Shown piece by piece: positions 12,865-39,907 of a stretch of 40,894 nucleotides of DNA; the stretch's first letter is position 1; every line of letters starts with the position of its first letter. Origin of the DNA: a virus. The notes beneath the pieces were generated by a model that worked only from the letters and a program-made list of their open reading frames with translations, was not told the origin of the DNA and did not search any database. Position numbers and translations under genes: made by a program. Location: the IMG/VR virus record IMGVR_UViG_3300046171_000181, positions 1 through 40,894 of that record. The stretch is one strand, 5' to 3'.

Positions 12865-15800
12865 ATGCCAGAAATTAAAAACAATTTTCTTCAAGGTAAA
12901 ATGAATAAAGACCTTGATGATAGATTATTACCTAACGGCCAGTATAGAGATGCACAAAATATACAAATATCTAAATCTGAAAATTCTGATGTAGGTGCTG
13001 TTCAGAATATTAAAGGAAATAATTATGCGTATAATGCTACTCCTCTTAACTTAGCTTCTGGTGTTGAAACAATCGGCTATTATAAAGTTTCTTTAACTGG
13101 TGAAATATTTTGGTTTGTAACAAATTTTACAGGTAATGATACTGTAAGTTCTAAGGATATGTTATACGCCACAGAAAGCATAAATGGTATTGATACTGTT
13201 TGTGCTATATATTATTGGAATGCAAATCAACCAAATACTCCTCCGCAAGCTATAATCAATAGCTTTAGATTGAATTTTTCAAAAAATCATCCCATACTAC
13301 ATGTTAATTTAATTGATAATCTATTATTTTGGACAGATAATTATAATCAGCCAAGAAGAATAAATTTAAGACAAGCAACAGGACAGGCTATTGGCACCTT
13401 TTATATTGATGATAATTATTTAGAAGATAAAATTAGTGTTGCACAATATTCTCCCCCATCAGCACCTAAAGTTACTATGAGCGCCGAAAGTAGCTCTGAT
13501 GTAGATAGTTTACATATAAGAGATAAATTTGTAAAAATTTGCATATAGGTTTCAATATGAAAATAACGAATATTCGTTAATGTCTCCATTTACACAAACT
13601 TGTTTTCATCCTGGTAAAGGTAAAAAATTTTAATAATGCAACTTTTGTTGCGGACGACGCAGGCATGTTATCATCTGCAGATGAAAGTAATGCTGTAAAA
13701 GAAACAATAGTAGAGTCAATGCAGAATCTAGCTAATAGAATTGCTTTATTTATTGATTTACCTTGTAATATTGATAAATCAAATGTTGGCGCGTGTGATG
13801 CAAATGGAATACTAACTGGTACTAGTCACAATATAGATAATCCTAATCCTAATGGCTCAATATCTGATGGTGATATTTTATTAACTGCTAAAGGTGATGA
13901 ATATATTGTAAATGGTGGAAATAAAACAACAACATTAACTACAAGTACTAGTGTTTCACCATCAATTATTAACGATACAAGATTATATTTTTTTAATAAT
14001 GTAGCTGATTATGATGATAAAATGCAAATTAAAAAAATACAAATATTATATTCTGAATCAGATAGCGCTGCTTTAAAAGTTGTAGAAACTTTAAATTTTA
14101 ATGAAATTAAAAGTGATATAACACATAGAGTTGAGCCTATATCTAACAATATTGGTAAATTAATATATGGTTATAAATATATATATAATTCAATAAAACC
14201 TATACAAACTTTACCAGAATCTGAATTAATTAGAGTTTCAGATGTTATACCTGTAAAAGCTCATGCGCAAGAAGTAAGTGGGAATAGAGTTATTTATGGT
14301 AATTTTAAACAAAATAGATCATTAGATACCGCTGTTAATAAAAGTTCATTTTTAATAACAAATGGTGATCAAACAAAATTTAATGATCAATATTTATTAT
14401 CTTCAGTAAAATCAAATAGAGAATATTCTGTTGGCTTAGTTTTATCTGATAGATATGGAAGACAATCAACAGTATTTTTGCCAACAACTAGTACTACATT
14501 TGTAGATCCTAAAACAGGAACTGTTACAAATGGAGCAAGTTCTTGGACGCATTCCGCACTAAAAGTTACTTTTAATAATACAATAGGTGATCCTTATCAA
14601 GTAGATACAAATCCATTAGGTTGGTATTCCTATAAAGTTGTAATTAAGCAATCAGAGCAAGAATATTATAATGTATATGCTCCAACAATAGTTGATAATA
14701 TACCTTCAGGAAATGTAAGATCATGGCTAGTGTTACATGGAGACAATGTAAATAAAGTGCCTAGAGATGTTACTGACGTTAATACCGAAACAGGTACTCA
14801 AGGTTCACAGACTAGACTATTGCCTAAAATATTAGATTTAAACGGTACACAAACACAACAATCAGGAAATTCATTTGTTGATGTTATTTCAATTGGAAAT
14901 AAAGAAGAACAGGGGTTTGGTTCAAATAGTATTGATGATTTTTATTTAAATGAAAAAGGACCATTGTTAGCTGAATTACCAGATGGATACGGAAGAAACA
15001 ATATTCCTAATACTACTTTTAATAATTTAGTTGTATTAGAAACCGATCCTTTTAAATCTGCTTTAGATATTTATTATGAAACTTCAACAGCTGGTTTGGT
15101 TTCACATTTAAATGCTGCTATAACAGAAACATTAGGTGTTGTACCTGCAAGTATAACTTTATCAGCTTCGTCTTTTGCAGAAGCAACAGCAAGCGGTAAT
15201 ACTGTAGCTGCAATAACATCAACAGATACAAATAGTAATCCTGTAAATACACCAACTTATAGTATTATATCTATAACAGATGCAAATGGAACAAATAGAT
15301 CAGGCGCGTTTACAATAAGCGGAAGTAATTTATTAACCGGCGAAGCATTTGAATTTACAAATACAAATACAGATGATTATACTATAAGAATAAAAGTTAC
15401 AGACAACAGTGGAAATACTTTAACGCAAGATAAATCTATATCCGTTACAAATAGTAATCCAACAATAAATGTAGGTATTGCTTTAACTATACCAGCGTCT
15501 ACAATATCTGGAACAGCAATTAGAACAATAACAGGTACAAACGGAAGTGCTAAAACAAGTGCAAATACAAATAATTTAACATTTTCTATTACAAATGGTA
15601 ATAGTGCTGGTAAATTTAGTATAAATGCTTCTACAGGAGTACTAAGTACAGCTTCTAGTGTAACATCAGGTGATTCTTATACGTTAACAATTCAAGTATC
15701 AGATGTTGGGAATGCTACAGCGTCAGATACTTTAAGTATAACTATTGGCTCTGCATCAAGAACAGCTTTTTGGAGAAGCAATAGCGGTTACACATTTGCG

Positions 15801-16064
15801 TCTACCGCGGTAGACGCACCAACTCTTGTGCAAGTTTATTTTGAAAATACAAGTGGTAATCCTGCTGGTAATTTACCTGAAATAGGAGATACTGTATACG
15901 ATTCAGCAACAGGAATAGGTAAATTTGATAGCGGTGCCGCTACAAATGGAACAGGTGGATATTGGCATTCCATGTGTGGACCTTCATACTGCCAACAGGA
16001 AGAAGCATTATTTGTATTTAAAACAACCAATAGTGGTGTTGTTGTAGCAAAACAAACAGGTTAA
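12865..16064 (+). CDS. Large tail (muzzle/stabilisation-like) protein with cadherin-like insert, broken by two single-base insertions (restores to ~1,065 aa)
   Basis: Two open pieces, 12865-13548 and 13665-16064, join when one A is removed near 13531 and one A near 13623. The gap then reads on as FAYRFQYENNEYSLMSPFTQ, then HPGKGKNFNNATFV, with no stop. The N-terminus, with MNKDLDDRLLPNGQYRDAQN, is the signature of tail-hub/muzzle beta-propeller proteins in podovirus-like and crAss-like phages. Restored residues from about 770 onward (nt ~15140-15750) form two tandem Ig/cadherin-like repeats rich in Thr/Ser/Asn (ITLSASSFAEATASGNTVAA, and SINASTGVLSTASSVTSGDS). These repeats are likely surface-exposed and could bind carbohydrates or host. 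The end has CGPSYC. The next gene appears to continue the same tail structure. Confidence 0.75.
15797..15818. repeat. Perfect 22-bp palindrome inside the muzzle gene
   Basis: The two 11-base arms are exact inverted copies meeting at CCGCGG. The palindrome is much richer in G/C than the surrounding ~30% GC sequence and encodes FASTAVDAP in frame. As RNA it would form a stem with no room for a loop, or as DNA a cruciform or dimer-binding site. It is unexplained by any feature nearby. Confidence 0.75.
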
Positions 16065-17352: not shown

Positions 17353-17751
17353 ATGAAATTAAATATTCGTAGACTCAATGATGAGGACTACAGCACATTA
17401 GTAAAATGGTGGGATGCATGGCCAAAATGGCAAGCACCTCCTAAAACTTTTTTACCAGACACTGGTTTTATAGTTGAAAAAAACAATATTGGTATAGTAG
17501 CAGGTTATGTATATATGACTAACTCTAAGGCTGCTTTACTTGAATGGATAGTATCTAATCCAGAATACAGAGAAAGCGACAGAAAAGACGCGATAACGCT
17601 TTTAATTCAAGCCGTAGAGCGTGTTTTAACTGATCAAGGTATAAAACACGTATTTACAATAGGTCGTCACAAAAGTTTAATAAACTTACACAAAAAATTA
17701 GGATGGTTAGTTGACGAAAAACCATCGTACGAAATAATAAAAAATTTATAA
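17353..17751 (+). CDS. GNAT-family N-acetyltransferase-like protein, 132 aa
   Basis: The length and order of elements fit the GNAT fold: an N-terminal MKLNIRRLNDEDYSTLVKWW, a central beta strand (GIVAGYVYMTNSKAALLEWI) followed by NPEYRESDRKDAITLLIQAV, then HVFTIGRHKSLINLHKKLGW near the acceptor side. The classic Q/R-x-x-G-x-G/A acetyl-CoA loop is not obvious, with a YRESDRKDA segment in its place. The gene starts directly after the preceding tail protein and ends 3 bases before the next virion gene. Such acetyltransferases occur inside tail gene clusters of marine phages; the substrate, possibly a virion or host protein, is unknown. Confidence 0.75.
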   Translation: MKLNIRRLNDEDYSTLVKWWDAWPKWQAPPKTFLPDTGFIVEKNNIGIVAGYVYMTNSKAALLEWIVSNPEYRESDRKDAITLLIQAVERVLTDQGIKHVFTIGRHKSLINLHKKLGWLVDEKPSYEIIKNL

Positions 17752-19791: not shown

Positions 19792-22700
19792 ATGATTAAA
19801 GTTTTATATAATAATAAGGAATACGATGTTCCTGAAAATGAAGTAGATAAATTTGTTTCTATTTCTCCCGGTGCTCAAATTATGAAAAATGGAGATCCGG
19901 GAAAGCAAACTCCCGCAGTTCAGGGTGCGACTGTGGAGGAAACTGCAGCACCCGATATGGATTCCACTTCGGATCCTGGTTCTTTGGTGCCACAAGAAGA
20001 TAAAATAAATTATGGTGAATCGTATAAATCATATGAAGAAAATAGAAATTCAAAAACAAGAATTGATTTTTTATTAAATTCAAAAGTAGACCCTTATGCA
20101 CCAGCATTAACAAGCAAAATTGCAAGATCAAAAATAAAATCTTCAATATTAGATGATGATTTTCAACCTGGTAGAGAAATAAATATTGATCAAGAAAAAT
20201 ATAGTTCAATAATACAAAAAGCAATAAACTCAGACAGTTATTTAAATGATTTATCTTCTGATATATTAAAATTTAATAAAGCTTTTACAGATAAAATTTT
20301 AAATGATGTTAAAAAAGAATTTGATTTAACTACTGAAGAAGGTGTAAAAAATGCTAACGAAGAATATGTAAAAAGAATAAATGCTTTTTTATCTAATAAA
20401 ATATCTAGTAATAAAACATTTGAAGACCGTATAAATAAATTTCAAAATGCTTTAGATGCAGAATTAGAAGAAAGAAATGTAAAGTATAATAGAGAAAGAT
20501 TAGGGTTAGATGAAAAAACATATTTTGGAGAATTTTTAAAATCTGGATTTAAAGATATAACTTTAGCAATCAAAAAAGGTGCTACTGCAAATATTGGAGA
20601 AAATATTATTAGATTAAAAAAAGAAAGAGAATCTATAGAAAATTCAAGAGACAACGCAGAGGTAAGCTACGGTGGAACTTTTTCACAAAAAGAAGGTTTT
20701 AAAATTGGCACAAAAAAAGGTTCAAAAGAAGAAGCGCTTGGATATTATGATCAAGAAATAACAGATGCTAAATCTAAATTTTTAGCTAATTTAAAAGGAA
20801 TAGAGCAAAGAGAAATAGATTTATCTTTTTATAAACAATTACCTAAAGATGTAGATTATTTTTCAAAAGATGGCTTAGGTTTAATAGCTAAACAAATACC
20901 TCAATTAGGTTTTGCGGCTTTTACGGGTGGTTTGGGAGTATATATGCAGGAATTTGGTAGTGCTTACTTTGAAAACGTTTATAATAGTTTAGGTGATAAA
21001 CCTGCAACTGCTGAAAATATTTTAAAAGCTGTTGAGGCAGGAAATGGAGAAAGAGGATTAGCAACAACACAAGCAGTCATATCAAGTTTGCTAGAGTCCT
21101 ATGGAGCATCACAAATAGTTAAAGGTGTTCTTGGTTCTGCAGGAGGCAAAGATATTGTTAGAAGTATTGTAAAAGATGGATTAAAAAAATATATAAAATC
21201 GGGAGGACTTAAAGAAGGGGGGAAAGGTATATTAAAAGGTGGTTTTACTGAATATTTAACAGAAGGTTTTCAAACAATAGTTTCACAATTAGGTGCAGGC
21301 GCGGCTCAGGATGATATATTTAAATATATTGATTTAAATAACGTTATAAAGAGCGCTCAGGACGGTGGTTTTGTTGGTGCTGTTTTGCCATTTGCTGGTA
21401 ATGTAACAAGAGCAACAGCTAGAGAAACTGTTCAAACTGTTAAAGAAATAAGTTCAAAATTTGACCCTAAACGTATAACACCTATATTATCAAATACTAA
21501 AAAAGAATTAGAAATAAAGGTTAAAAACAACGAAATAACTAGAGAAGAAGCTGATGAAACTATTCAAGCTATTAATAATATTGAGGATGCTAACTTGAAA
21601 ATACCTACGTATATTAAAAACGAAAGCAGAATTGAAGCTGTTGATTTGATTGTTGAAAAACAAAAAATATTAAATAATATAAAAAATCTTGATGAAAATT
21701 TTTTAGAGGCAGATACCAGTAGGCTAGAAGAAATAAATAATAGGCTTGTACAAATAAATAAAGAAGGCGATGTTAAAAAATCAACTGAATTTGCAAAATC
21801 TGCAGAGAGCATAGGATTAGAAACTTTAGCATTTCAAAACACACAAGATTTTAAAGCAGGTATTGAAGCAGATGGCATTAAATTAAATGATGAACAAAAA
21901 TCTGAATTAGGTGAAGTTGGAGGTTTTATATCAGGTAATAAAATATATATTAACGAACAAGTTGCTGCTGAAACAAGTAATTTAAACGTTGGTGGTCATG
22001 AAGTAATGCATGGCGTTATAGCTGAAAAATTAAAAACACTTAATCCTGAGCAATTACAACAATTACAAAATAATTTTTTAGAATTATTGCCAACTACTGA
22101 AAAACAATTATTGCAAGACGCGTTAAATAAAAGATATGATCCTTCTGAGCATGCTAAAGAATTTTTTAGTGTATTTTCTGATTTGAGTCAGGACGGTAGT
22201 ATAAAATACAAACAAGATTGGGCAACTAAGTTAAAAGATTGGTTAACTGAAATGATAAGAAGGTTTACGCCTTATAAAAAGATTGAATTTAATAATGCCC
22301 AAGATGTATTTAATTTCTCACGTCAATATACAAATAGTATAAACAAAGGTCGATTATCAAAAGGTTTAGCTAAAGGTATTGGTAAAGTTGGCCTAGCTGA
22401 AGTAGCACTTTCAAAACAAGCATCAGACAATGTACAAAATATCTACAATGAAAAAGGTGTTGACGGATCATTTGATATTATTGAAGCATTTAATCCTATA
22501 ATTAATAAGCTAGTAGATAAAAGAAGAGAAGCACCTAATTTTAATAAAGAAGATTTAACAAGTGAAATAAAATATTCTGATAGAGGTATACTTGGTTTAA
22601 TAAGAAGCTATAATCCTGATTCTGGTGTCCCATTAGCTGCATATGTAAATAAATTTTTACCTTCAAGAATGATTGAAGCGTCTAATAAAATATTAGGTGA

Positions 22701-25700
22701 AGAATTTACAGTTGATGTAACTGAAGCAAAAGGAGTTACAGCGCAAGAAACTGAAACTGTTACTGAAAAACCAGTAAGTAAAAAAATAAAACCAAGTTCA
22801 TTATTAAAAGATATTGAAGCTGCAAAATCTAAAATAATGAAAGGCCTTAAAAATGTTCCTAAAAAAGATTTAACATTTAAAAGGCTAAAAGATTTATCAC
22901 CAGAAACTACGGCTGAAATATTTGAAGTACCAGCTAAAAAAGTTACAGATCCAAAAGCCAACTTAAATAAAGGTGATTTAAACAATGCTGCAAGAAATAT
23001 AAATAAAAATGTAGATAAATTATTAAGATTATTACCTAAAGGTGCTGTTGTTGAAGCTGCAAGCGAAAGATTATTAGGTACATCCACAGGAGTTCCAAAA
23101 TCATTGCTAGATGTTTTTTATACAAAGCAAGAAAGATTAACCAGAGGGGCCGGTTTGAGTCCGTATAAGCTTAATTCAATTAATAGGCAGCAGTTTTTAG
23201 AAGGTTTAGGTATAGTTGATGGAAAACTAAGAGAAGGTTTATCGCCAAGATCGCCTGAAGCACAAAGAATAAAAGGTATAATGAATCTTACGGGTAAATT
23301 AATTACCAATGAAATTGTAAGAAGTGAAAGTGATTTATCATTAGAAGCTAAACAAGATTTAGCAGCGGGTAAAGCTGATGTAATGTTTAGTAAAGTTAAA
23401 AAGCTTAAAATAAATGAACAAGTTGCAAATGAATTTGGAGGAAAAATAAATAAAGATAATGTACAAGAAATAGGTAAAATTTTCAGAAGCTATGTAAAAA
23501 TGATTGATCAAGTACCTAATTCTGCATTTTTTATGACCCCAAGTAATTTAGCCCCCGGCGGGAATAGTATAAGAAGAATGCGAGATGGTATTTTTGTAAG
23601 TCAGGCATTAGATAATGCAACAATTCAAGCAAGAGATAAAGGCGAATTATTAGAAGTAATTGCTTTACAAAAAATAAAAGAAGAATTGGGATTACCTTTA
23701 ACCACTAAGGGTAAAAAAGTTGAAGAAGCATTTCCTTGGACAATGGTAATTAAAAGCCAAAAAACAAAAAATTTAAATAAGAATTTAAATATTAGGGAAA
23801 ATTTTAAAAGTAATTTTAAAGGTGCATTAGATATTTTATCAGATATGTACGCTATTGATCCTAAAGCTACTGGATTAGTTGTTTATAATCAAAATGCTAA
23901 TGGTGCTACAACAAGAAATATGGCTCAGCTAATTGGGTTAGAACAAGGTGCAATAAAAATATTAGAAGAACACATATTGCAACATGGTCAATTTGCAAAA
24001 TTAGTTGGTGTATATTCTAAAATTAAAGATGCTGATACTAAAACAGCAATGGCAAATTGGTTAGCTGATAACTATATACAAATTGCATTAAAAAGTGGTG
24101 AAGGAAAAAACAGAACAGATAGTCATTATAAAGTTGATTTAACGTATGATTTAAATGGTAAAAAGTACAAATCTAAATCAGAGCTACACCCGCTTTTAGA
24201 ACAAAAAATACAAGAAGCTATTAACGGAAAAATATCTTGGAAAGAAGTACCAAGTTCTAATATAAGATTATATAATGAAGTTGTTAAATTAAACCCTAAT
24301 GCTATAAAGCAAGAAGGTATAACTCATGCTGAAAAATATAATGTTGTTGTTCCTTCAAAATTATCATTTGATGCAAATGTATATGAAAAACAATCTGATT
24401 TAATATTTGAACAAATAAAAGATGAAATTACGCCAGTTCAGGCAAAAAATGCAATTGATACTTATATAAAAGAAAGATACCCTGATATTAGTAAAGCCAC
24501 ATTAAATGCAAATAAATTAGCACCTAAAAAAGAACAATTAAGTTTTTCTAAAAAGAAAAAGCCAAGTAATAAAGAAGTTATAGAAAATCTTGAAAAGATA
24601 GACAAAGCAAACATAGAAGCTAGCAAAGCAAGAACAGCTGAAGTTGATATAAATAAAGAATTTAATCAATATCTTGAAAGTGCAACAGGTATAGGTGCTG
24701 AAAAAGTATTTAATCAAGCTAAGGCAGAAGCAAGAGGATCAAAAGTTAGAAAATCTTTTGGTGATTATTTTATACCACCTGGAGCTGAAGACTTTGGTGG
24801 ATTAATGCATAAAACATTAGCTAAAGGCAAAAAGGGAGAAAAACAATTAGAGTTTTATAAAAAGTATTTATATGATCCATACAATGCAGCTATGGAAAGT
24901 ATAACAAGAGAAAAGTCAGCAATGATGAATGACTTCATGGCATTAAAAAAGCAATTTAGTAATGTGCCTAAAAGATTAAAAAAGTTTACTAAAGGTGGAG
25001 ATTATACGAACGATCAAGCTGTAAGAGTTTATGCATGGACAAAGCAAGGCATGGAAATACCTGGGCTATCTAAAAAAGATGTAAGAGAATTAGTTAATGA
25101 AGTTAAAAATGATAAAGAATTATTAGCTTTTGCTACAGAGCTAATTAATATAACTAAAGGTGACGGTTATCCAAAACCACAAGAAAGCTGGATGGGTGGT
25201 AATGTTGCTATAGATTTAATGTCATTATTAAACGGAGATAAAAGAAGTAAACATTTAGAAGCTTGGCAAAATAATGTTGATATATTATTTAGTAAAGAAA
25301 ACATGTTTAAATTAGAGGCTGCATACGGTAAGAACTGGGCTAAGAATGTAAAAGCTACATTGCAAAGAATGAAAAACGGCTCTAATAAAAAATGGGGTGG
25401 TGATAAAAATTTACAAGCCTGGAATGATTGGGTTAACGGATCTGTAGGAACAATTATGTTCTTAAATACTAGATCTGCCGCATTACAGATGATTTCAAAT
25501 GTAAACTATATAAACTATAAAGACAATAATCCATTAAGAGCTGCACAGGCGTTTGCAAATCAACCACAGTATTGGGCTGATTTTGTTGAAATATTTAATT
25601 CAGATTACTTACAGGAAAGAAGAGGTGGTAATAAAATAAATATTAATGAAAGCGAATTAGCATTAGCTGCAGAAAAAGGTGGTGTGCAGGGTACAATTAG

Positions 25701-26652
25701 TTATTTATTAAATAAAGGTTTTATACTTACTAAAATGGCTGATAGTTTTGCAATTGCTTCTGGTGGTGCAACGATGTATAGAAATAGGATTAAAACATAT
25801 ATAAAAGACGGTATGTCTGAAGCAGATGCTAAAAAACAAGCATTTTTAGATTTTAAAGCTATAACCGAAGAAACACAGCAATCTAGTAGACCAGATAGAA
25901 TATCTGAACAACAAGCTGGTAATTTAGGAAGATTTATGTTAGCATTTGCTAATACACCAATGCAGTATAATAGAATTATAAAAAGAAACGCCCAAGATCT
26001 TATTGATGGTAGAGGCGATCCTAAAGAAAAATTAAGTAAAATACTTTATTACAGTACAATACAAAACTTAATATTTAACGCTATGCAAAAAGCCGTATTT
26101 GCATTAGCATTTGCCGATGATGACGATGACGAAAAAATAGTTTCAAAAGCTAGTGATATAGGTAATGGTATGGCGGATTCACTATTAAGAGGTTCAGGTT
26201 TGACAGGTAATGCTATTGTAGCTGCAAAAAATGTAGCAATGGAAATAGCTAAACAATCTAAAAAACCTAACCCTGATTTCCAACAAGCAGCTTGGAAAAC
26301 ATTAACAGTATCTCCACCATTGTATGGTAAACTTACAAGATTAAGAGGAGCAGGTTATTCTATGAAATATGTTACACCCAAAAATGTATTTGAACCTAAA
26401 TTAGATAATCCAGCATTGTCAGCAGCAGCACAAACTGCATCAGCAACATTTAATTTTCCATTAGATAGAGCATTAAGAAAAGCACAAAATATAGAAGCTG
26501 CAATGAGTGATGAAGCAGAATGGTGGCAAAGCACGGCATTATTGATGGGATGGGGATCATGGGAATTAGGAATAGAAAATGAAAAAGATAAAAAAGAAAA
26601 ACAAGTAAAAAGAAGAAAAGGCAGAACAATAGTAAAAAGAAAAATAAAATAA
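19792..26652 (+). CDS. Giant internal virion/ejection protein, 2,286 aa, with zinc-peptidase motif and sigma-70-region-2-like segment
   Basis: This is the longest gene, and it is intact. The N-terminus MIKVLYNNKEYDVPENEVDK leads giant tail/ejection proteins of related phages. Residues 736-740 are HEVMH, an HExxH metallopeptidase motif, followed ~45-55 residues on by AKEFFSVFSDL, which may supply the third ligand. Residues ~930-965 contain LGLIRSYNPDSGVPLAAYVN and LPSRMIEAS, which align in pattern with sigma-70 region 2 (L-x-G-L-x-R-x-x-x-x-x-D-P-x-x-G-V-x-F-x-x-Y). Residues ~1975-2110 carry MADSFAIASGGATMYRNRIK, LGRFMLAFANTPMQYNRII and a hydrophobic stretch typical of the C-terminal conserved domain of large ejection proteins (T7 gp16-like position). 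The protein is probably injected and may help cross the envelope or act early. The remaining regions are not assigned. Confidence 0.8.
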   Translation: MIKVLYNNKEYDVPENEVDKFVSISPGAQIMKNGDPGKQTPAVQGATVEETAAPDMDSTSDPGSLVPQEDKINYGESYKSYEENRNSKTRIDFLLNSKVDPYAPALTSKIARSKIKSSILDDDFQPGREINIDQEKYSSIIQKAINSDSYLNDLSSDILKFNKAFTDKILNDVKKEFDLTTEEGVKNANEEYVKRINAFLSNKISSNKTFEDRINKFQNALDAELEERNVKYNRERLGLDEKTYFGEFLKSGFKDITLAIKKGATANIGENIIRLKKERESIENSRDNAEVSYGGTFSQKEGFKIGTKKGSKEEALGYYDQEITDAKSKFLANLKGIEQREIDLSFYKQLPKDVDYFSKDGLGLIAKQIPQLGFAAFTGGLGVYMQEFGSAYFENVYNSLGDKPATAENILKAVEAGNGERGLATTQAVISSLLESYGASQIVKGVLGSAGGKDIVRSIVKDGLKKYIKSGGLKEGGKGILKGGFTEYLTEGFQTIVSQLGAGAAQDDIFKYIDLNNVIKSAQDGGFVGAVLPFAGNVTRATARETVQTVKEISSKFDPKRITPILSNTKKELEIKVKNNEITREEADETIQAINNIEDANLKIPTYIKNESRIEAVDLIVEKQKILNNIKNLDENFLEADTSRLEEINNRLVQINKEGDVKKSTEFAKSAESIGLETLAFQNTQDFKAGIEADGIKLNDEQKSELGEVGGFISGNKIYINEQVAAETSNLNVGGHEVMHGVIAEKLKTLNPEQLQQLQNNFLELLPTTEKQLLQDALNKRYDPSEHAKEFFSVFSDLSQDGSIKYKQDWATKLKDWLTEMIRRFTPYKKIEFNNAQDVFNFSRQYTNSINKGRLSKGLAKGIGKVGLAEVALSKQASDNVQNIYNEKGVDGSFDIIEAFNPIINKLVDKRREAPNFNKEDLTSEIKYSDRGILGLIRSYNPDSGVPLAAYVNKFLPSRMIEASNKILGEEFTVDVTEAKGVTAQETETVTEKPVSKKIKPSSLLKDIEAAKSKIMKGLKNVPKKDLTFKRLKDLSPETTAEIFEVPAKKVTDPKANLNKGDLNNAARNINKNVDKLLRLLPKGAVVEAASERLLGTSTGVPKSLLDVFYTKQERLTRGAGLSPYKLNSINRQQFLEGLGIVDGKLREGLSPRSPEAQRIKGIMNLTGKLITNEIVRSESDLSLEAKQDLAAGKADVMFSKVKKLKINEQVANEFGGKINKDNVQEIGKIFRSYVKMIDQVPNSAFFMTPSNLAPGGNSIRRMRDGIFVSQALDNATIQARDKGELLEVIALQKIKEELGLPLTTKGKKVEEAFPWTMVIKSQKTKNLNKNLNIRENFKSNFKGALDILSDMYAIDPKATGLVVYNQNANGATTRNMAQLIGLEQGAIKILEEHILQHGQFAKLVGVYSKIKDADTKTAMANWLADNYIQIALKSGEGKNRTDSHYKVDLTYDLNGKKYKSKSELHPLLEQKIQEAINGKISWKEVPSSNIRLYNEVVKLNPNAIKQEGITHAEKYNVVVPSKLSFDANVYEKQSDLIFEQIKDEITPVQAKNAIDTYIKERYPDISKATLNANKLAPKKEQLSFSKKKKPSNKEVIENLEKIDKANIEASKARTAEVDINKEFNQYLESATGIGAEKVFNQAKAEARGSKVRKSFGDYFIPPGAEDFGGLMHKTLAKGKKGEKQLEFYKKYLYDPYNAAMESITREKSAMMNDFMALKKQFSNVPKRLKKFTKGGDYTNDQAVRVYAWTKQGMEIPGLSKKDVRELVNEVKNDKELLAFATELINITKGDGYPKPQESWMGGNVAIDLMSLLNGDKRSKHLEAWQNNVDILFSKENMFKLEAAYGKNWAKNVKATLQRMKNGSNKKWGGDKNLQAWNDWVNGSVGTIMFLNTRSAALQMISNVNYINYKDNNPLRAAQAFANQPQYWADFVEIFNSDYLQERRGGNKININESELALAAEKGGVQGTISYLLNKGFILTKMADSFAIASGGATMYRNRIKTYIKDGMSEADAKKQAFLDFKAITEETQQSSRPDRISEQQAGNLGRFMLAFANTPMQYNRIIKRNAQDLIDGRGDPKEKLSKILYYSTIQNLIFNAMQKAVFALAFADDDDDEKIVSKASDIGNGMADSLLRGSGLTGNAIVAAKNVAMEIAKQSKKPNPDFQQAAWKTLTVSPPLYGKLTRLRGAGYSMKYVTPKNVFEPKLDNPALSAAAQTASATFNFPLDRALRKAQNIEAAMSDEAEWWQSTALLMGWGSWELGIENEKDKKEKQVKRRKGRTIVKRKIK

Positions 26653-27492: not shown

Positions 27493-27751
27493 AAAAGGCG
27501 CTTCACTTAAACGTTGGTTTAAAGAAAAGTGGATAGATGTCAGAACTGGTAAGCCTTGCGGTAGACGTGCAGGTGAAAAGCGTGGCACACCATATTGTAG
27601 ACCAAGTAAAAGAATATCATCTAAAACTCCAAAAACATCAGGTGAAATGTCAGCATCTGAAAAAAGAAAAAAGATTGCAGAAAAGAAAAGATTAGGCCAA
27701 CCAGCTGGTAAGCCTAGAAGAGTAAAAAATCTTAAAAGACGTAAAAAATAG
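27473..27751 (+). CDS. Small highly basic protein with CGRRAGEKRGTPYCRPS motif, 92 aa
   Basis: MAVRKTKKGASLKRWFKEKW is followed by IDVRTGKPCGRRAGEKRGTP and YCRPSKRISSKTPKTSGEM, then a Lys/Arg tail ending in NLKRRKK. This motif is one I know from many aquatic phage and large eukaryotic-virus genomes, with no experimental function. Over a third of residues are Lys or Arg. Bases 27637-27751 of this gene, and 74 bases beyond, are copied exactly into the insert at 28314-28502. The start overlaps the preceding gene by 20 bases. Confidence 0.75.
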   Translation: MAVRKTKKGASLKRWFKEKWIDVRTGKPCGRRAGEKRGTPYCRPSKRISSKTPKTSGEMSASEKRKKIAEKKRLGQPAGKPRRVKNLKRRKK

Positions 27752-27825
27752 GTAATTACATATATTATACAAACTTAACATCATGGCAAAAAAATTATCG
27801 GAAGACACAGAAGTACAACTTGACC
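27637..27825 (+). repeat. Source copy of a 189-base exact direct repeat
   Basis: All 189 bases reappear at 28314-28502, a shift of 677 bases. The segment covers the end of the basic-protein gene, the short intergenic gap and the first ~43 bases of the membrane-protein gene. The match stops abruptly after GACC. It is part of the duplicated structure discussed under the broken thioredoxin-like gene. Confidence 0.95.
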
Positions 27826-28064
27826 TTAAAACTATCGGAATGATTGTTGGAGGAGCAATTGCATTAGCTGCAACTTATTTTGCATTACAAGCTGATATAG
27901 AACTCGCTAAACAATTACCTGAGCCTCAAGTATCAAGAACTGAATTTGATTTAAAAGATGAATTAATTCGTTCTACAATAATTGATATAGACGAAAAGGT
28001 AGACAAAAATGCAGAAAAGCTTGACAAAATAGATGAAAAGCTTTATGAGCTAACAAAAAAATAA
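27783..28064 (+). CDS. Holin/spanin-like small membrane protein (TM plus coiled coil), 93 aa
   Basis: Residues ~16-38 (LKTIGMIVGGAIALAATYF region) form one transmembrane segment. The C-terminal half is a heptad-patterned coiled coil (DIDEKVDKNAEKLDKIDEKL). It lies just upstream of an exported thioredoxin-like gene, a similar protein and the endolysin, so a lysis role (holin, or a protein spanning the inner membrane) is inferred. A second member at 28850-29164 shares the same TM/coiled-coil layout. Single-TM holins or membrane anchors are alternatives. No signal-peptidase site is evident. Confidence 0.65.
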   Translation: MAKKLSEDTEVQLDLKTIGMIVGGAIALAATYFALQADIELAKQLPEPQVSRTEFDLKDELIRSTIIDIDEKVDKNAEKLDKIDEKLYELTKK

Positions 28065-28313
28065 ATATGAAAAATTTAATTACTTTAATTTTATTATTAT
28101 TTACATCAATTTCATTTTCACAAGAAATGACAGTATTATATATGAATTCATCATGGAATTCTAGAAATCATTATCAAGATGTAGATAAATTAAAAAGAGC
28201 AACAATTTTAAAAGTAAATTTTGAAGATCAACCAGTAAGTATAAGAAAAGCAATTAGATCAGTACCGGCAATTATAATATTAAAAAATGGTAGACCTGTT
28301 GCTACATGGCAAG

Positions 28314-28502
28314 ATCAGGTGAAATGTCAGCATCTGAAAAAAGAAAAAAGATTGCAGAAAAGAAAAGATTAGGCCAACCAGCTGGTAAGCCTAGAAGAGT
28401 AAAAAATCTTAAAAGACGTAAAAAATAGGTAATTACATATATTATACAAACTTAACATCATGGCAAAAAAATTATCGGAAGACACAGAAGTACAACTTGA
28501 CC
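28314..28502 (+). repeat. Exact second copy of 27637-27825
   Basis: All 189 bases match 27637-27825. This copy splits the thioredoxin-like gene and is followed at once by a degenerate copy of the gene's own first half. It carries a false start for the membrane-protein gene (ATGGCAAAAAAATTATCGG) but reads only a few codons before the sequence changes. Confidence 0.95.
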
Positions 28503-28750
28503 AATTATGAATTTAATTATTTAATTTATTATTATTACATCAATTTCCATTTTCACAAGAAATGACAGTATTTATATATGAAATTCATCATGGTATTCTA
28601 GAAATCATTATCAGATGTAGATAAATTAAAAAGGAGCAACAATTTTAAAAGTAAATTTTGAAGATCAACCAGTAAGTATAAGAAAAGCAATTAGATCAGT
28701 ACCGGCAATTATAATATTAAAAAATGGTAGACCTGTTGCTACATGGCAAG
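28503..28750 (+). repeat. Degenerate duplicate of 28065-28313
   Basis: The sequence follows 28065-28313 with many single-base insertions and deletions, mostly in A or T runs, in its first ~130 bases. The last ~120 bases are identical. It rejoins the undamaged gene at 28751. The gradient of errors is characteristic of poorly polished long-read consensus, or of a repeat resolved from few reads. Confidence 0.85.
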
Positions 28751-39119: not shown

Positions 39120-39145
39120 TAAGCGGTATTTGCTACCGTAACTTA
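39120..39145. promoter_or_regulatory. Short hairpin between sigma factor and annealing-protein genes
   Basis: A CGGTA/TACCG stem with a five-base loop is flanked by weaker pairs, and it slightly overlaps the end of the sigma-factor gene. No T tract follows on the minus strand. It may attenuate, process or stabilise the mRNA where regulatory genes meet recombination genes. Confidence 0.35.
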
Positions 39146-39907
39146 TAGGTAATCAAGCACTTGCGTACTATCTACATTATCAATAAGCTGTTGTATAGCA
39201 TCCCGTTTTATCTGTGAAATGCGTACATGAGCAGTGCTTACATTGATACCTAATTTGTCTGCAATTTCATTTGCAGAATGCTTATCACAGTCTAATCCAA
39301 AGCTTAATCTTAATACATCATATTGTATTGGTGTACAATGTTGTTTCATCAACGATAATAAATATGTATTAAGTAAAGCAATATTATATGGTTCTGATTT
39401 ATCTATAATTTGATAAGCCATATTATCATCATCATTTGGTTGAGCGTCAATACTACTAAACACACTATTGAAAAACATTGAAACCATTTTTTCATCTTTA
39501 GGATTTCTACGTATTTCATTTAACTTATGCTCAGGAATACGTATGTCGCCTCTGTTCATATCCACGGCTCTTCGTATTGCACCCTTAATTCTTTTTGATA
39601 GAAATGACTTAATAGTTTTTTCTTGGTCTTCGGACTCAGCTAATAATGTTCTATCTAATTTGTTTACTGCAGCAGTTAATCCAGCGTTGCCTTCTTGAAA
39701 CAAATCAAGTATACTTAGTACACCTGACGCTTGATCTGATGTTGATTGTTTCATTGCAAGAGTAATAACTAATGGTAAAAAGTTTTTAATAATTTCATCA
39801 TTAGTTAATTTAGTGTAATCACCGTCTTTAGGTTTTTTTACTTTTTTAATTGTTGCTTCTACGTCATTTTTATATCTTACGTAGTTCTGAATATTAAATT
39901 TTCTCAT
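39143..39907 (-). CDS. Sigma-70-family RNA polymerase sigma factor, 254 aa
   Basis: Region 2-like sequence LSILDLFQEGNAGLTAAVNK (residues ~64-84) is followed by FLSKRIKGAIRRAVDMN, a -10-recognition-like helix, and DIRIPEH near the start of region 3. Region 4-like sequence (~196-240: YDVLRLSFGLDCDKHSANEI, then ADKLGINVSTAHVRISQIK) ends with a helix-turn-helix. It likely redirects host RNA polymerase to phage promoters, presumably the virion block. It overlaps the upstream HTH gene by ATGA. Confidence 0.88.
   Translation of the reverse strand: MRKFNIQNYVRYKNDVEATIKKVKKPKDGDYTKLTNDEIIKNFLPLVITLAMKQSTSDQASGVLSILDLFQEGNAGLTAAVNKLDRTLLAESEDQEKTIKSFLSKRIKGAIRRAVDMNRGDIRIPEHKLNEIRRNPKDEKMVSMFFNSVFSSIDAQPNDDDNMAYQIIDKSEPYNIALLNTYLLSLMKQHCTPIQYDVLRLSFGLDCDKHSANEIADKLGINVSTAHVRISQIKRDAIQQLIDNVDSTQVLDYL

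Follow-up and report, generated by a model that had tools for sequence, protein, structure and literature searches.

A divergent homologue of sigma-70 region 2 beside a zincin-like domain in a giant late protein of a podovirus-like phage

The window, that is, the whole stretch of DNA that was analyzed, comprises the 40,894 bases of an IMG/VR virus record. An open reading frame (ORF) on its plus strand (positions 19792–26652) encodes a protein of 2286 amino acids (aa) with no internal stop codons. It is the last and largest gene of a rightward late module, where it lies after the terminase (TerL), portal, capsid and tail-region genes, which were assigned by PHROG family matches. Small genes and an M15 endolysin gene follow, and then a leftward early/replication module. 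The portal protein shared 53% identity with that of the uncultured podovirus ctfjg026, 47% with that of Maribacter phage Panino and approximately 42% with those of Flavobacterium elemoviruses, and was more distantly related to those of Cellulophaga phage phi38:1 (36%) and of phi13:2 (28%), indicating that the window derives from a podovirus-like phage of marine flavobacteria. The late module also includes a gene for a GNAT-like acetyltransferase (17353–17751), and ctfjg026 has a CDS annotated as ‘N-terminal acetyltransferase’ at the same place. Compared with a near-identical contig, IMGVR_UViG_3300046171_000176 (L002), the window carries single extra bases at positions 13533, 13622 and 18010. 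The first two coincide with the division into two ORFs (12865–13548 and 13665–16064) of what is one 1066-aa frame in L002, a split that is a probable result of assembly or sequencing errors. In addition, L002 aligned to positions 27603–28510 as two overlapping, repeated pieces, with divergence near 28313–28510; the two contigs apparently differ here by a local duplication or rearrangement.

The full-length giant protein had no match in Pfam or the PDB and only two non-significant matches among PHROG families, and a tblastn search of 50,697 phage records with it detected no homologue. Counterparts were recognized by genomic position: the same module is closed by a giant gene in phi38:1 (gp101, 1691 aa, annotated as ‘structural protein’), phi13:2 (gp127, 1990 aa), elemoB (gp93, 3694 aa, ‘structural protein’), Panino (CDS0069, 1829 aa) and ctfjg026 (3859 aa). 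Three public annotations in this group look misleading, namely ‘tRNA methyltransferase’ for the Panino giant (L008:35453–40942), ‘DUF3293’ for that of elemoB (L010:2798–13882) and ‘reticulocyte binding/rhoptry protein’ for that of ctfjg026 (L011:242–11821). The position of the gene in the late module and the annotation of positional counterparts as ‘structural protein’ suggest that the 2286-aa product is an ejected or polyvalent virion protein. That annotation is the sole hint that the family occurs in virions, and the literature searched contained neither a mass-spectrometry statement for the giants of the cultured relatives nor virion proteomics for the clade. The original prediction had noted that the gene lies where T7 gp16-like ejected proteins are encoded; Pfam and PHROG searches gave no match of useful significance to gp16 or to its lytic transglycosylase.

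Several parts of the giant protein could be delimited (all domain coordinates refer to the plus strand). A module of ~65 aa (aa 1–65; 19792–19986), with a YxxxGKxYxL-type start, forms the N-terminus of many giants and is retained in close relatives in spite of exchange of the residues that follow it; it is a candidate packaging or targeting signal. An N-terminal helical/Gly-rich region (aa 128–605; 20173–21606) is shared in part with elemoB gp93 (E = 4e-64) and, weakly and over a small part, with the Panino giant (E = 2e-7). Next come a zincin-like and a sigma-70 region-2 (sigma2)-like domain, described below. The latter is adjoined by a conserved domain with no assigned function (aa 1008–1250; 22813–23541), which gave marginal PDB profile matches to histone H2B, the best covering two stretches at 1.2e-5 and the rest at 3e-4 or weaker, that are possibly due to chance; PDB profile searches with the other domains of the giant protein returned nothing else useful. 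A second conserved domain with no assigned function (aa 1368–1570; 23893–24501) contains an invariant E–H pair and an R. The most conserved part is the C-terminal domain (aa 1619–2260; 24646–26571), for which profile searches revealed no known relative, and a search with it gave at least 548 confirmed matches in viral contigs. Full-length giants of about 1,900–3,500 aa were extracted from these matches, and domains were counted in the 95 giants that exceeded 1,700 aa. In the close relatives L003–L006, residues 1–65, ~868–980 and ~1619–2286 are conserved and residues 66–868, including the zincin-like domain, are replaced. Judged from the sequences, this replacement between recognizably conserved flanks is domain swapping inside one gene.

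The HEVMH motif (aa 736–740; 21997–22011), taken for a zinc-peptidase site in the original prediction, lies within a conserved domain (aa 672–862; 21805–22377) that is present in 87 of the 95 giants. The giant protein has just 10 His residues; 0.0033 HExxH motifs are expected by chance, and the motif appeared in 12 of 5000 shuffled sequences. An iterated HMM search with the domain converged on 75 ORFs, and among the cultured and uncultured relatives it was shared by elemoB gp93 (E = 2e-26) and the ctfjg026 giant (E = 5e-16). In an alignment of 66 homologues, E737, H740 and E790 (22159–22161) were invariant (66/66 each), and at position 736, 60 sequences had His, 4 had Glu and 2 had Gln; E790, which the original prediction had not named, is thus the candidate third zinc ligand. 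Zincin copies in which the first His was replaced and the other ligands were kept had Gln in L018 and L045, and Glu in L043, L046, L059, L075 and L078; some phages possibly carry these as inactive or altered enzymes. An AF2 model built from 66 sequences without templates (pLDDT 84.5, pTM 0.81) showed, in segment numbering, strands at 6–10, 40–43 and 46–50 and an N-terminal helix at 13–22, with HEVMH on the helix at 62–76 and E790 on a later one at 113–129. This predicted topology may correspond to that of the polyvalent MPTases, in which a three-stranded sheet and an N-terminal helix precede the HExxH helix (PMC5512222). A Foldseek search of the PDB with the model yielded no meaningful match, and the zincin assignment therefore rests on the conserved ligands and the predicted topology. 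Weak matches to Peptidase_M78 were obtained for 8 homologues (best 7e-4); the window domain itself matched no Pfam or NCBIfam family above the cut-off, the NCBIfam matches being noise. These data indicate that aa 672–862 form a zincin-like domain with intact ligands and a predicted peptidase site.

The original prediction had also pointed to a likeness to sigma-70 region 2 at about residues 930–965. The segment YNPDSGVPLAAY is part of a domain at aa ~872–988 (22405–22755), in which GLIRSYNPDSG begins at residue 935. The window segment alone matched no sigma model; the link to sigma factors runs via its homologues. When 177,635 distinct PDB sequences were searched, a profile of the 15 closest relatives only gave non-significant sigma matches (best E = 0.17), whereas with 41 homologues the top seven matches were sigma factors (best E = 0.0017), and with 52 homologues the best match was 8b3z, the SigE N-terminal domain (E = 3.2e-4), the five best and most of the 49 matches being sigma factors. 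Profile–profile comparison by hhalign gave a probability of 82% (E = 1.1e-5) against four E. coli sigmas and of 87% (E = 4.4e-6) against E. coli plus phage sigmas, with control domains at 0.1–0.3%. An AF2 model of residues 868–1004 had a pLDDT above 90 over the helical core, and in a Foldseek search of 350,542 PDB chains its top 34 matches were all sigma factors, with probabilities of up to 0.99; the E-values were modest (0.1–0.7), a level to be expected of a helical domain with 90 residues. Over 74 columns, the model superposed on the isolated SigE N-terminal domain at 2.5 A, with a TM of 0.67 by target length. In the Foldseek viral library, the top match was another giant uncharacterized protein (at least 1,475 aa), followed mostly by phage sigma factors.

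Single homologues also matched PHROG sigma families. phrog_351 was matched by 6 members (best 6.2e-11), and it matched within the 1,622-aa giant frame of L141 (E = 6e-14). PHROG 1025 matched the domain too and was discarded as evidence; we relied on phrog_351 because it was positive in 13 of 14 control genomes, as against 0 of 14 for PHROG 1025. In the reciprocal direction, a profile of E. coli sigmas was run against 1,108 phage ORFs, and more than half of the top 22 matches, each of them weak, fell on the sigma2-like domain. No cellular homologue was confirmed in 84,980 genomes searched with one peptide pattern, and tblastn of the domain of a close homologue against 50,697 phage records found none. 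Profiles and predicted fold together indicate that the region at aa ~900–985 is truly homologous to sigma-70 region 2. Neither structure model gave the outcome by which the original prediction would have failed: there was a predicted metallopeptidase site around residue 736 and a predicted sigma2-like fold at residues 900–1000.

To describe which residues of region 2 are kept, 52 family members were aligned and numbered according to E. coli RpoD. An aromatic residue at 419 (52/52), F/L427 (51/52), Y430 (45/52) and L435 (50/52) are kept and probably pack the core, and L412 is also retained among the core hydrophobics. P426, L415 and R438 are new, family-specific conserved residues. At the core-contact positions, Gln406 is found in 0/52 and Glu407 in 3/52 members, and 35/52 have an acidic residue at 403; the promoter-melting W433 and W434, and Q437, are lost from the family. 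In sigma-70 factors, the residues at these positions of region 2 take part in core-enzyme contact or promoter melting. The region 2.2 core-binding set (D403, Q406 and E407) and the region 2.3/2.4 residues for melting and –10 recognition are therefore not preserved as in a sigma-70 factor, and a profile search detected neither region 3 nor region 4 (Sigma70_r3/r4), the latter being responsible for –35 recognition, in the giant protein or in the domain after sigma2. The domain has in common with sigma-70 region 2 (the SigE, SigK and SigF N-terminal domains and PHROG 351) the predicted fold, the helix order, the hydrophobic core and an FDP-G-F/L-x-x-Y signature, but it differs in lacking Gln406/Glu407, the promoter-melting Trp residues and region 4, and in being embedded in a 2286-aa protein. 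Considering that Gln406 and the Trp pair are lost and that region 4 is absent, aa 872–988 are, by sequence, a divergent sigma2 homologue and not a sigma factor.

Among the 95 giants, at least 51 contained the sigma2-like domain and 45 contained both domains, in the order zincin to sigma2-like in all 45 and with a spacing of 24–192 residues. Several zincin-only giants have more divergent segments at the sigma2 position, such as FNPNTAKFSTFV in L040 (~aa 857); FDP/FNP-type segments of this kind, downstream of the zincin and not scored by the sigma2 profile, were seen in L040, L048, L051, L055, L057 and L060. The sigma2-like domain may be commoner still than our count suggests. No such domain was detectable in the giants of the cultured relatives.

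In addition to the giant protein, the phage encodes a free-standing sigma-factor-like protein of 254 aa with regions 2 and 4 (39143–39907, minus strand). It matched Sigma70_r4 (4.5e-4) and Sigma70_r2 (3.4e-3), both below the Pfam cut-off, and SigA in the PDB (1e-5). The protein is conserved in 24 of 49 related records, which are often partial, and a tblastn search of 50,697 named phage records returned no homologue. The free-standing phage sigma-like proteins retain D403 (13/13), Q406 (13/13) and, in part, E407 (9/13). Six cultured relatives were tested for a PF04542 gene and all lacked one, and there is a coincidence at the level of the clade: the cultured relatives without this gene also lack the sigma2-like domain in their giants, so that phi38:1, elemoB and Panino differ from the window phage in both respects. 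We considered whether the free-standing gene and the sigma2 domain go together, but claim no linkage because giants without a detected sigma2 (for example, L040 and L060) also come from phages that have the sigma-like gene.

The giant protein resembles the polyvalent phage proteins (Iyer et al. 2017, PMC5512222), which are huge multidomain late-gene proteins with shuffled domains, for which delivery into the host was proposed and in which the HExxH zincin is the commonest domain. Giant polyvalent virion proteins were treated as known in the original prediction, and zincin-bearing ones are indeed described in that survey; what is new is the presence of a sigma2 domain. The word ‘sigma’ does not occur in the survey, which describes no sigma domain, and we found no earlier case of a sigma region-2 domain in a giant phage protein in the open-access literature. 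Ejected giant proteins typically carry a zincin domain, and the N4 virion RNA polymerase is one of them (PMC5512222, PMC12633501). This polymerase, gp50, is likewise a giant protein with an HExxH zincin-like domain, and it is ejected and acts before phage gene expression (PMC12633501); the window giant has no polymerase domain and carries a sigma2-like domain instead. The sigma2-like domain could work only with a polymerase supplied by another party. Giant, virion-packaged, transcription-related proteins are also known from crAss-like phages of Bacteroidota (virion cargo/vRNAP gp47, gp49 and gp50; PMC10172136) and from P23-45 (gp96; PMC10770324), but their DxDxD polymerase signature is absent from the window giant. 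T4 Alt is an injected virion protein that acts on host RNA polymerase (PMC5512222); it is an ADP-ribosyltransferase, and its domain is unrelated to those of the window giant.

From its position, size and counterparts, we infer that the giant is a polyvalent protein that most likely travels inside the capsid and leaves it together with the DNA. It would consist of an N-terminal adaptor, the zincin-like metallopeptidase, the divergent sigma2 and a conserved C-terminal body, of which the last would probably serve packaging or channel formation. The conserved ligands and the known polyvalent zincins suggest that the zincin most likely cleaves either its own giant chain or a host protein, during packaging or once in the host. 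The sigma2-like domain, by its homology, would most likely dock at entry on the core RNA polymerase, at or close to the position that sigma2 occupies, and once docked it might retain the polymerase on the entering DNA, or block host sigma until the phage sigma-like protein is made. The host polymerase is a plausible target given that the phage has a sigma-like protein of its own. That the giant is an ejected polyvalent protein whose sigma2 engages host transcription at entry seems to us a little short of an even chance, and for a transcription-related role of the domain as such the balance tips slightly to the negative. A more specific proposal is tentative and on the doubtful side: as the DNA enters, a virion-delivered sigma2 fused to a zinc peptidase would dock on the RNA polymerase of the host, diverting or blocking it ahead of synthesis of the phage sigma-like protein.

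Contact with the host RNA polymerase is disfavored by the loss of Gln406 (0/52) and the near absence of Glu407 (3/52), as opposed to the retention of Gln406 in 13/13 free-standing sigma-like proteins. In the main rival reading, the sigma2-derived domain would no longer bind RNA polymerase and would be a helical docking module in the virion or ejection channel, or have another partner. The pattern of change, in which Gln406, Glu407 and the Trp pair are lost, the core hydrophobics are kept and P426, L415 and R438 are newly conserved, fits such a module, as does its location inside a giant late protein whose neighboring domains lack known function. However, retention of an acidic residue at 403 by 35/52 members and recurrence at one position in giants that have diverged widely suggest that a specific role has been preserved, and to our knowledge sigma2 domains do not otherwise serve as structural modules. 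We regard this reading as possible, if clearly below an even chance. The zincin, for its part, might act in virion maturation only, cleaving the giant or other head proteins at packaging, and not as a host effector. Cleavage of P1 DdrB precedes its encapsidation, and encapsidation of the N4 vRNAP requires the region that holds its zincin, but the N4 vRNAP is packaged uncleaved (PMC5512222). The lack of the first His in 6 of the 66 homologues also speaks against this option, since catalysis may not be essential in all of them; a role confined to maturation has not quite an even prospect.

Two further readings carry little weight. Chance resemblance of a short helical segment would accord with the failure of the window segment alone to match any sigma model and with a pairwise identity to sigma of only ~12–20%, but the sequence-profile, profile–profile and fold searches independently rank sigma first with controls at background, and the E. 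coli sigma profile placed many of the best remaining weak matches among the 1108 phage ORFs on this very domain. We therefore set chance aside as very improbable. Still fainter is the prospect that the giant is a virion RNA polymerase of the N4, crAss or P23-45 kind with a built-in sigma2. It would be a giant late zincin protein like the N4 vRNAP, and the phage, like the crAss-like phages, belongs to those of Bacteroidota, but the family has scattered acidic runs only and no conserved DxDxD two-barrel motif, and neither the giant protein nor the profiles of its other domains matched a polymerase in Pfam, PHROG or the PDB, T7-type polymerase domains included.

The hypothesis of polymerase binding lends itself to direct testing because the sigma2-like domain is small and confidently predicted, with clear sets of lost and kept residues. 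The architecture is widespread, with at least 548 viral contig matches to the C-terminal domain and the sigma2-like domain in at least 51 of the 95 long giants. Injection of whole polymerases is known from N4 (PMC12633501), crAss-like phages (PMC10172136) and P23-45 (PMC10770324). A sigma region-2 relative in a giant late protein would, if our proposal is true, represent a different route to host transcription before phage gene expression, in which pre-early takeover would be accomplished by an injected sigma fragment and not by an injected polymerase.
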